64,000 nucleotides of DNA from Dichotomocladium elegans (taxonomy: Eukaryota; Mucoromycota; Mucoromycetes; Mucorales; Lichtheimiaceae), in the NCBI GenBank assembly GCA_025716815.1, contig JAIXMN010000018.1:496001-560000 (forward strand), in the 5' to 3' direction. Every line of letters begins with the position of its first letter. The stretch's first letter is position 1. Below, piece after piece: positions 21,646 through 41,134 of the stretch. A model generated the notes under the pieces. It was not told where the DNA came from. It was given only the letters and a program-made list of their open reading frames with translations, and did not search any database. The translations under genes were made by a program, and so were the position numbers.

Positions 21646-24636
21646 ATGGGCGACAATTGTATAATCAATGACCAACCCATTGACGACGATATAGCCCTAT
21701 TTAACATTGAGTCACCGCGATCACCGATACCCACAAAATCTCCCTTGAAACGGAAGCTTAACCAAGACAACCTACCGATCGCAACACAACCTACTCCACA
21801 TGCTGCTGATCCTACTGGCGGAATCACCGAGCCACAAGTCGAAACGGTGGTTGACATCTTGAAACGATTATTAACGCAAGTAAATATTGACGTTAAGCAT
21901 TCCAATGGTAAAATGAAAAAATAGGAGCATTAGAAGCAATGTAGAAGGGAAGAAGTGGAAAAAAGGGGGAAGCCTGACTTTATGCTAATTTGTAGATTGT
22001 CCCAAAGAATCGGGTCCAAACAATAACGGAGTGCAGGGTCTCATGACAAGCTTCATGACAACCTATCTCATATTTATCGAAATACTCCTATCGGACCTTT
22101 TAGGCCAAAATGCACCTTCTCGGACCCTTGAAGCATATATGTCCATATTTGATCCGCACGACCGCATCGTTGGCGACCTTCTTGGTCTGCAGTATATGCA
22201 AGCGACATACCAACCCTTGGTCGCTGAGTTACGGTATCAGTTACGCAGTAATAAGATCATATTCGGTTCTTTGCGGTGGATCGATACTATCTTTACGAAA
22301 TTCTATACGACTTACTTTCTTGAGGTTGCCGCCCAAAAACATCAGAAAGACCACGGCCAATTTTATACACCTCAGAGTGTTGTTCAATTCATGTGGCAAC
22401 TTTGCCTCAAAGATGATGCATCAGTTCCACTCGTGCTTGACCCTTGCATGGGCATGGGTGCTTTCCTTTGCGAATTCTTCACCCGCCTAGTAGACAAATG
22501 CATGTCCGTACCCAGCATTTGGAATAATGCATCCCGACTTCGACATTTACTCTGCACAGAAATCCCAGAGAACATATGGGGCGTCGAGATTGATGCGTTC
22601 GCACTTAAGCTTGGTAAACTCAACATGCTGGTCCATTTATTCCCGCTTTATAGACGGTTGCTGGACCTTGGCGAGACCAATGTGCATGTAAAACGATTTC
22701 ATTTCTTTTGCAACGACACCCTCAAGCTCACCGTTGAAGGCGATCTGTGGGAGCAAGAACAGTTACAGCGGCTCCGGGGATCGCTCAAATTTGAGTACAT
22801 TGTCACGAACCCGCCGTACATGATCAGGAAGACTGGATTCATAACTGAACCCGATCCAGTTCTTTATGATACATCCGTTCTAGGCGGCCGCGGCGTGCAA
22901 GCGTATGTCTACTTTATGTGGATATGTTTACAGCGCTGCGACCCACTTTCGGGCCAGTTATGCCTTATCACTCCTAGCCAATGGTTGATCCTAGAGTTCG
23001 CACGACGCCTGCGGTAAGTCCCTTATCTTTTACAAACATTTCAGTAAACTTATTAGTCTACATTCTTTTTTTTAATAGTGCTTGGATGTGGAAGCATTGC
23101 CAACTATTACAAATATACCAGTTTGAACCGTACAAAGTATGGCCAAAGGTACAAACCGACTCGCTGATCTTTCGTCTCCGCATGCGAGCGAGGAACTGTC
23201 AAGGGAACACTCTCTTTCTGCGCTACATGTCCCGTAAAGCAGACCTTGATGAGATACTTCATGCATACGCAGGTTTTGACCCAGCTCAGCCCGCTAACAT
23301 CTTGTACAAATCAACACCAACACAAGATGTTAATCGTATTCATCGGTCGCCTAATGCATCGTTTGCTTTTCTCTCGCCAACATCCAAATTATCTGATCAA
23401 CTTGCAGACCTGACTGTCGATCTCCCCCGCCTTTGCTACAGTGCCCGCTCTCCGCTGCTGTTCAATCGTGGTCCGAACACGAACCCGGTTTATGCACTCG
23501 TTGTCCGCACCCAATGGGCTCTTGATTATCTTGGCAAAGTCTGCTACGATCGGTGGCTACGCCCAGCCTTCTATTGGAGCGGTAAAACATCCGGTAACGA
23601 TAAGGAGAGCACTTTCTGGATGGCCCGTGACCCTCTCCGCTTATCAAAAAAGGAAACGTCACCGGCTGAGGCCTATTCGCCATTATATCAACCTGAGGCC
23701 TTCTATTCAATGGTGCTTGTGGATAAAGAAGGAGCGAAAGAACTCGAGGCATCTTACGCGGAGAATGGTGATGCAAGTCCGTATTGTGCCCTCTATCATT
23801 ATCTCAAGGACACGCGCCGAGAGCTCCAGCCGACCAAAGAGGATCAGGAGCTTGCATGGTGTCAATTTAACAAGTGCGGCGTTGATGTTCCGGTGAAGAT
23901 CGTGCATCCCATCAATTACGGGTATTTTACGCGTTCCCAACCGCGGCAGCGCTTCTTCATTGACCGAAAGCAGCTTTGCCTCACGAACCAATGCATGTAC
24001 TTCACTATCAAGCCCGATTGCCCATGGCAGTCGGCCGAATTCTTTTGTGGACTTCTTAATTCGAGTACGGTCCAACTATTTATCCGCGAACACTGTTATT
24101 ATGACCAACAAGGTCGTACCCGCTTTTTTGGAAAGCACATGGCAAATATTCCGTGTGCCTTGCCAACAGGACCAGAAGATGTCGAGCTCATGACCCTACT
24201 TGTCAAGACTGCCTCAGTAGCACGTGAATGTATCCACGGCATTGTTTGGCACACAGGGGTGCAAGGCGTAATGGAGAAGGTGCGCCGATGCAGCTGGGAT
24301 TTGTCGCCTGCCGATAAATTGCTTTTAGCCGATATGCGAATATCAGACATCATGCAGGCCATGACAAGCGCACTTTCCATTGACCAGCCTCACTGGATAC
24401 TTGACGAGTTGAAACTGAGGGCCGATCATTTGGTGGTCGATGAGTTGGTGCGTCTTCTCAAAATCGCGTCGCTTTGCCAGTATGGTATCGATCATTTAGC
24501 CTTTGAATTATATCAAATACCTCGGGATCTCGAGCAGCTGCTCGAGAAAGAGCTTGGATTAACAATCACAGAGCAGTGGAATGAATTACCACTAAGCTCT
24601 GTCGCGGAAAACCTGAAAGCTGTGTTCTTTTCTTAA
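21646..24636 (+). CDS. N6-adenine DNA methyltransferase, restriction-modification type
   Basis: Three exons (21646-21907, 21996-23013, 23079-24636) encode 945 residues, the size of bacterial type IIG/IIL enzymes. The motif order is that of gamma-class N6-adenine methyltransferases: motif X GQFYTP (208-213), SAM-binding motif I DPCMGMGAFL (236-245), an acidic end of strand 2 in GVEIDAFALKL (about 283-293), and catalytic motif IV NPPY (359-362). The second half (about 430-945) resembles TaqI/Eco57I-like target-recognition regions, including a GLLNSSTVQLFI helix and FFGKHMANIPCALP. The N-terminal 90 residues are Pro/Ser-rich with a basic SPLKRKL, unlike bacterial enzymes. I see no PD-(D/E)xK nuclease motif, and no restriction gene lies nearby. 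Expected reaction: SAM-dependent methylation of adenine N6 in a specific DNA sequence. Upstream in-frame codons exist, so the start could lie earlier. Confidence 0.88.
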
Positions 24637-39757: not shown

Positions 39758-39807
39758 CCTCATGTGTGTCTCCGCCTTCTCAACCTTTTTTCATTGTCAC
39801 CTTTCTT

Positions 39808-41134
39808 ATGGCTCCCACGACTTCAACGAGGCGCAAACGAACGCTACTCAATTTTAACCAGCTGGCTATCCTACAGCACTCCTTTGCAAAGAACCCTTTA
39901 CCCGACAATGCCGTCCGCGCCAAGCTGGCAATTGATCTTGGTGTTACTGAGCGCACTGTACAAATCTGGTTTCAAAACCGTAGGGCAAAGACTCGCAAGA
40001 GCTCCAAGGAATTACTTGCACAGCAAAATGTTGCATCTGGCCCTTCGGAGAATCCAGTCTCAGGGCATCCATTATCTCGGTCAGCAACGGTGACGTCGCA
40101 GGATGAACCAATGGATCATCAAAAGCAGCAGCGACGATCTTTGCCCAGTGGGGGGCGGTATCAGCCTACATTTCGGACATTGATGACCCCCGAGCGGTAC
40201 GAGGAATTACGAGATCGGCGCCGTCCTCGGGCCACTCTGTCAAGCAGTAGTAGTACGAGTGAAAACACCATCAGAAGCAGCACGAGCACTGTCAGTAGTG
40301 TTGGCAACAGCGACAGTGTTAGTGTCATGACGAAAAAAGAACCTCCGTTGCCTAATCCAGAGATCGCCTCAGGTGAGAAAGACAGAGAGACAGAGTGTGT
40401 TATTGATACAAAGTCGGAAAGATTGATTTTTTCTTTCAACATACGTAGGCGTGACCCTCTCATTTATGGCGCATATGCTCCGGATCGGCACCTGGACCCG
40501 ATTCGCCAAGCACACCGCCACACCCAAGAATGCTGGGGGCAGCTGGGACCTTGCGTGCGAGGTGGACCCGTTTCTCCGCCGCATTGTCTGGCAGATTCAG
40601 GTACAGGACGGCAATCTTTTTCGCATGCAGATTCCCTTTGAGGCCATCCGACAAATCCGTCTTTCCAACGCCTATGACGATCTTTGCCTCGCTGACCTCG
40701 AATTCGATCTCTTCAACCCCGCCCTTGTCGTCTTCACTATGCTGCGTCGCGAGATCGATCTCGACTGGGTCCTGTGCAGCGACTTTTCAGAAGAGTGCCA
40801 GGCGACCCAATGCTTCGTCCATGTGTTGCAAGGCTACTATGAGATATTCAACCAGACGCTCCTCAATCTCATCACTCTGGTCCCTGAATTTGCTTCGACG
40901 GTCATCTTCGCGACTCCGCCCGTGTGTCGGGATACCCTGACCTCGTCCCCTTCTGCGACACCCGAGCCATATATTGCGACTTCAAACACAACGATGACTG
41001 CGATGAATTACTCTACTCCAATCATTTATCAACAAAGTTACCTGCAACCGCACTTCCTTCCCCTCGGCTTGGTTGAAAAGCCGATCAACCCCAATGATCT
41101 CTACCTGATTGCCGCCACTGGGACTTACTTTTAG
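39808..41134 (+). CDS. Homeodomain transcription factor, PHO2-like
   Basis: Two exons (39808-40372, 40449-41134) encode 416 residues. The homeodomain fills residues 7-66, with RRKRTLLNFNQLAILQHSF in helix 1 and ERTVQIWFQNRRAKTRK in the recognition helix; its residue 50 class (Gln/Ile region) is ordinary. A Ser-rich linker follows, then a separate folded region (about 190-330) with GGSWDLACEVDPFLRRIVWQ and alternating strands, and an aromatic/Pro tail. This second domain occurs in fungal homeodomain proteins related to yeast PHO2-type regulators, though I place it only by its position and look. Nuclear DNA binding is expected; target genes are unknown. The start at 39808 is preferred because the homeodomain begins seven codons later and a TATA box fits. 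Confidence 0.88.

Follow-up and report, generated by a model that had tools for sequence, protein, structure and literature searches.

N6-Methyladenine (6mA) in early-diverging fungi has been linked to MetB, an enzyme named by Lax et al. (2024; PMC11258239) and described in the text of that paper as conserved in these fungi, including Mucor and Phycomyces. Deletion of metB in Mucor lusitanicus lowered 6mA by 70-75%, mainly in its asymmetric part, and eliminated the AAA6mACA motif (PMC11258239). Mutants were sensitive to hydroxyurea, had a higher lipid content and showed lower virulence in Galleria (PMC11258239). By HHpred, the same text reports an MmeI-like recognition domain in MetB and, based on trees, it proposes that bacteria passed the gene on in an ancient transfer, with a second such event in Glomeromycota (PMC11258239). 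Here, we describe a gene in a 64,000-nucleotide stretch of the genome of Dichotomocladium elegans (Mucorales, Lichtheimiaceae); this whole stretch, positions 496001-560000 of contig C33 in a 39.4 Mb, 122-contig genome, is referred to as the window. The gene very probably represents a MetB orthologue, encoding an orphan gamma-class enzyme with a long-ago prokaryotic entry and vertical inheritance since, which likely acts as a single-chain writer.

MetB in fungi is already known, and the D. elegans gene adds a copy of a published enzyme. A first-pass annotation of the window, made from its letters, had stated that a second, sequence-specific methyltransferase would be new; this expectation was overtaken by the publication of MetB with a knockout, the AAA6mACA motif and a proposed bacterial origin (PMC11258239). 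That study was the only experimental MetB paper found in searches of openly available literature, and D. elegans is absent from its main text. A 2026 review (PMC13297926) restates the MetB findings, as far as its accessible text goes, and the accessible text of the R. irregularis methylome paper (PMC8298701) treats MT-A70 enzymes only. No paper joining Dichotomocladium with methyladenine was found in the literature search. The early-diverging-fungal enzymes, including MetB of M. lusitanicus, share family, domain order (N6_Mtase followed by a recognition half) and fungal clade with the D. elegans protein; activity and the AAA6mACA motif were shown in Mucor only.

A second described system, CamA of Clostridioides difficile (PMC8187626), is an orphan adenine methyltransferase with ca. 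16% identity to the fungal protein and with CAAAAA as its site, as compared to AAA6mACA for Mucor MetB. Relative to CamA, the fungal protein has an additional helical N-terminus (residues 62-172). Lys172 of CamA occupies the space of the displaced base, and K366 of the D. elegans protein, which is at the same place by residue offset, may have a similar role. The predicted fold and the lack of a detected partner nuclease in D. elegans would fit a CamA-like orphan enzyme, of which a single chain and a non-palindromic A-rich site would also be expected. No paper with CamA, MetB and 6mA together was found in the literature search and CamA is mentioned in the main text of neither PMC11258239 nor PMC13297926; only because the literature found lacks this pairing is the comparison counted as an addition.

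Gene Model and Annotated Features

Splicing of three exons on the forward strand yielded a single open frame of 945 codons plus a stop codon, while retention of either intron introduced an early stop. The spliced product was 100% identical, over its full length, to the deposited D. elegans protein P0001 (945 residues), which is annotated as an S-adenosylmethionine (SAM)-dependent methyltransferase. The spliced model therefore equals the annotated model. A 945-residue product with two introns, as proposed in the first-pass annotation, was thereby reproduced exactly, and motifs X, I and IV were found where it had placed them. Overall, metB is a real, functional-looking and well conserved gene. 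Its features, in window coordinates, are listed below (pLDDT, predicted local distance difference test; counts refer to an alignment of 32 rows).

21646-21907, + strand: exon 1 of metB, residues 1-87 (from splicing); residues 1-54 predicted to be disordered (pLDDT <50)
21748-21756, + strand: KRK basic cluster, residues 35-37, possible nuclear-localisation signal
21908-21995, + strand: intron 1, 88 bases, GT...AG (from splicing); stop at 21924 upon retention
21996-23013, + strand: exon 2, encoding the N-terminal helices and the greater part of the catalytic domain (from splicing)
22355-22372, + strand: motif X, GQFYTP, residues 208-213; G208, Q209, T212 and P213 invariant (32/32)
22439-22468, + strand: motif I, SAM binding, DPCMGMGAFL, residues 236-245; D236, P237, C238, G240 and F244 invariant (32/32)
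22808-22819, + strand: motif IV, catalytic NPPY, residues 359-362; invariant (32/32)
22823-22837, + strand: IRKTG loop after motif IV, residues 364-368, likely DNA-facing; invariant (32/32), pLDDT <50 for residues 363-369
23014-23078, + strand: intron 2, 65 bases, GT...AG (from splicing); stop at 23017 upon retention
23079-24636, + strand: exon 3, end of the catalytic domain, target-recognition half, C-terminal helices and stop (from splicing)
23416-24168, + strand: target-recognition half, ca. residues 540-790 (structure prediction, fold matches, conservation)
23938-24153, + strand: TaqI_C specificity-domain match, residues 714-785, below the Pfam cut-off
24169-24633, + strand: C-terminal helical part, residues 791-945, weakly conserved (conservation, structure prediction)

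Catalytic Domain and Motifs

Pfam matches to Eco57I (5.4e-20) and N6_Mtase (PF02384; 4.5e-16, 59.5 bits versus a cut-off of 20.4) were both above cut-off and no match to PF05063 (MT-A70) was found in the D. elegans protein, in line with the first-pass view of a bacterial-type rather than an MT-A70 enzyme. MT-A70 enzymes (Mta1, METTL4) also write 6mA in fungi, but belong to another family and carry DPPW instead of NPPY; an MT-A70 identity was rejected on both counts. The MmeI_Mtase match (0.0031) was below its own cut-off and every NCBIfam match was far under cut-off, with the Alw26I family (1.6e-10) as the best. When 32 relatives were scanned with Pfam (E up to 10), Eco57I and N6_Mtase were each found in 32/32, TaqI_C in 29/32 (best E-value 3.6e-07) and MmeI_Mtase in 24/32, and no nuclease family was among the 14 families listed. 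A PD-D/ExK-like pattern was looked for before motif X of the D. elegans protein and was not found; a nuclease of unknown fold is possible.

The elements GQ..TP, DPC.G...F, NPPY and IRKTG were invariant in the 32-row alignment, and all but one of the 94 fungal-type proteins holding motifs X and I had NPPY. By these features, the D. elegans protein belongs to the gamma class of N6-adenine DNA methyltransferases; it has a recognition half, and no nuclease was detected in it. The lack of a nuclease and of a restriction partner, already noted in the first-pass annotation, held up in the Pfam matches of the 32 relatives and in a scan of neighbouring frames; the enzyme would therefore be a solitary modifier. 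In 42 of the 94 proteins, motif I read DPCLGVSTF, with Ser replacing the second Gly, and the named ones among these were from Mortierellomycotina. Full-length proteins of this type reached 2248 residues and, in the two that were aligned, an insert followed NPPY.

Recognition Half

The predicted structure matched the fold of CamA over residues 182-907 and that of MmeI over residues 60-920. This model gives the C-terminal half the fold of a target-recognition domain, as had been proposed from the sequence. Residues of this half that were invariant in the 32-row alignment included RGPNT, QPR.RFF.D, TNQ and YDQQGR.

Recognition domains of restriction enzymes are expected to change quickly, unlike the recognition half of MetB. 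Identity to the D. elegans protein was calculated for the recognition half (residues 540-790) and the catalytic part (residues 186-460) in those 77 of 85 other fungal-type proteins that were filled in both. Recognition minus catalytic identity had a median of 0.2 points and ranged from -6.9 to +5.3 (n = 77), with recognition/catalytic identities of 62/62% for Mucor circinelloides, 55/51% for Rhizophagus and 47/49% for Mortierella alpina (P0066). Conservation of the recognition half thus equals that of the catalytic core, which predicts a common target site.

Three diverged copies (P0067, P0107 and P0108) were found in Gongronella butleri. They retained NPPY, had altered RGPNT, YDQQGR and IRKTG loop sequences and formed long end branches in a quick tree. 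These copies, which the main text of PMC11258239 does not name, are candidates for altered target sites.

Relatives and Phylogeny

A single-sequence protein search yielded 89 matches: 66 fungal-named proteins (own record included), 22 metagenome proteins in the same score range and one archaeal protein at 1.3e-04. E-values were at or below 1.8e-54 for 88 of the 89 (own record included). A profile search returned 113 proteins, with fungal-type sequences down to 338 bits and the next row at 45 bits. Fungal relatives were 43-63% identical to the D. elegans protein.

In the quick tree (42 fungal and 13 prokaryote-type proteins), all fungi were on one side of a branch with a Shimodaira-Hasegawa approximate likelihood-ratio support (SH-aLRT) of 99, and the D. 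elegans gene grouped with Fennellomyces, Zychaea and Phascolomyces (98). A careful tree (27 fungal and 5 prokaryote-type proteins) agreed, with supports of 100/99 and 100/99, and placed Mucor and the D. elegans gene inside a set of 17 Mucorales (97/98). The Pfam and tree checks proposed with the first-pass annotation thus gave N6_Mtase and Eco57I matches and a position in a fungal clade that also takes in Mucor and Phycomyces. These trees support the D. elegans gene as a MetB orthologue.

Outside Mucoromycota, MetB was found in Basidiobolus ranarum (P0036); the pertinent section of PMC11258239 names only Conidiobolus and Paraphysoderma as such cases. No Lichtheimia or Absidia protein was present in the sequence or profile match lists. 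Lichtheimia shares the family of D. elegans, and this gap may reflect loss or missing annotation.

Origin

Both halves of the fungal profile aligned with P0134-P0136, prokaryote-type metagenome proteins of 1265-1278 residues; this match spanned residues 148-791 and 609 columns, at a probability of 99.5 and an E-value of 4.4e-23. For P0122 and P0089, the profile alignment covered the catalytic part. Unlike the D. elegans protein, P0134-P0136 (23% identity) have an N-terminal PD...DAK motif at residues 80-99. P0122 scored as a type IIG enzyme (1.8e-221), with an additional HSDR_N match. Because of the PD...DAK motif in P0134-P0136 and the type IIG character of P0122, set against the absence of such a pattern before motif X in D. 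elegans, it is a reasonable inference that the ancestor was a fused restriction-modification enzyme that lost its nuclease.

The fungi-prokaryote branch was long (1.74 and 4.38 changes per column), and the trees consequently did not fix the donor. Two scans of viral contigs, one using exon 2 and the other the family alignment, yielded no relative by tblastn. In bacterial genome contigs, 14 stretches fitted the pattern of the family alignment and none was a relative by tblastn; the patterns derived from fungal-specific stretches, so that absence from bacteria is not implied. In plasmids and phages, tblastn gave only 18-33% coverage at 20-30% identity, mostly in the catalytic domain, among the matches listed (20 of 1100 and 20 of 43 records). 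The earlier suggestion of acquisition from bacteria agreed with the shape of the trees, but no donor could be named from the trees or from the viral, bacterial, plasmid and phage searches.

Proposed Mechanism and Alternative Explanations

In the proposed scheme, early-diverging fungi would have gained MetB from prokaryotes in the distant past, with vertical inheritance ever since. Within a single chain, the C-terminal half would recognise a short, A-rich, non-palindromic site, which by analogy with Mucor would be AAAACA. The flipped-out adenine would enter the NPPY pocket, and the methyl group of SAM would be placed on one strand only. Replication of such a non-palindromic site would leave one of the two daughter duplexes unmethylated and in need of new methylation. 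Gene structure, family, motifs, predicted fold and fungal clade were derived from the present analysis, while the asymmetric 6mA and the loss of the motif come from Mucor; for D. elegans, we infer that the enzyme is active, which site it uses and what role it has, as well as the single-chain mechanism.

That a large DNA virus, and not endosymbiotic bacteria, brought the gene into fungi is unlikely. Giant-virus adenine methyltransferases (Yasminevirus, Bodo saltans virus) were among the best BFVD fold matches (Foldseek E ca. 2e-14), but the top ten had TM-scores by query length of 0.27-0.41, as compared to 0.42-0.46 for CamA, neither scan of viral contigs gave a relative, and the non-fungal relatives found by sequence with E no greater than 0.001 were archaeal or metagenome proteins. 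The NPPY motif by itself is shared with protein-glutamine methyltransferases, among them HemK, to which a weak match was seen (TIGR00536, 0.14), and a decayed or repurposed relative with little or no expression, or acting on RNA or protein, was therefore considered. This interpretation is quite improbable in view of the open frame, catalytic motifs that were invariant in 32/32, a recognition half conserved like the catalytic half, a fold match to DNA-bound CamA across both halves, the loss of DNA 6mA in the Mucor knockout (PMC11258239) and the presence of a separate HemK-like frame in D. elegans.

Family-level likeness to type II, type IIG, MADS2 and bacteriophage-exclusion (BREX) PglX models and to BrxX structures could point to a role in a functioning defence system of the restriction-modification or BREX type. 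However, in contrast to type IIG/IIL enzymes (MmeI, DrdV, BpuSI) and BREX PglX/BrxX, the D. elegans protein has no detected nuclease part and no defence neighbours. A type IIG identity was rejected as no fused nuclease part was found in the Pfam scans of the 32 relatives, nor a PD-D/ExK-like N-terminal pattern, and BREX PglX was rejected since its model scored 18.5 bits versus a cut-off of 500 and neighbours were ordinary eukaryotic genes. With all NCBIfam matches far below cut-off, participation in such a system is highly improbable. Bacterial contamination of the assembly, which the bacterial type of the enzyme might suggest, was refuted by the two spliceosomal introns, the 951 kb contig, the eukaryotic neighbours and the fungal relatives, and has next to no probability; these same introns, contig and neighbours supported the earlier description as a resident nuclear gene.

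Several observations weigh against, or limit, the interpretation given here. In Phycomyces, 91.7% of 6mA is symmetric (PMC11258239) and, as this fungus holds a close relative of the D. elegans protein (P0005), MetB need not be the main 6mA writer in D. elegans. The M. lusitanicus gene that was deleted is represented in the trees by P0015 of M. circinelloides (46% identical), and prokaryote-type P0130 joined the fungal side of the quick tree at 93 with a branch of 4.83. For this tree, the program issued a warning of long-branch joins. TaqI/Eco57I-like features had been predicted, and Eco57I was above cut-off; the TaqI_C match (8.5e-05) reached 23.2 bits versus its own cut-off of 26.5. A loose PD...D/ExK pattern occurred in 8/92 fungal N-termini versus 15.0 expected from shuffles. 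A KR-type N-terminal cluster was present in 19/32 aligned relatives, but P0005 and P0021 were found to have none ahead of motif X, so the possible nuclear signal is not universal. P0107 and P0108 show that diverged MetB copies occur. The identity gap of the Gongronella copies (-6.9 for P0107, -6.5 for P0067) is not special to them, as values of -6.6 and -6.0 were obtained for Rhizopus microsporus and Pilobolus; the case for altered specificity in Gongronella therefore rests on changed invariant residues only.

Genomic Context and Other Methyltransferases

The metB gene sits inside contig C33 (951,348 bases). A Pfam scan of 9 neighbouring frames gave matches for 7 and none for 2. The matches were a PHD finger, two ABCE1/RLI1-like ATPase pieces, a GHMP kinase, a sugar transporter, a homeodomain and a NUBPL-type P-loop NTPase; the ATPase pieces are presumed to be ABCE1/RLI1 from their domain pattern. 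The homeodomain protein frame is at window positions 39766-40641 (Pfam 3.7e-18).

Elsewhere in the D. elegans genome, three MT-A70 matches (L002, L003 and L004) were found, two of them with DPPW in the surrounding frames. The single Eco57I match was the metB gene itself and a second N6_Mtase match was the HemK-like frame (L007), with SNPPY. By analogy with Mucor, D. elegans may thus hold writers of both symmetric and asymmetric 6mA.

Implications

That fungi have kept a bacterial-type adenine methyltransferase to write an epigenetic mark is of importance, yet this is already on record for Mucor, knockouts included. The value added by the D. elegans copy is comparative, in that its frozen recognition half gives a testable prediction of a common site. 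From Mucorales to Glomeromycotina, Mortierellomycotina and Basidiobolus, this half appears nearly fixed. We tentatively suggest, as a possibility somewhat short of even, that it maintains an ancient, shared, A-rich asymmetric mark, with a CamA-like single-chain enzyme rewriting it after each replication, an ancestral nuclease having been lost and the Gongronella copies representing natural changes of specificity. The match to CamA supplies a worked structural mechanism for such methylation of one strand.
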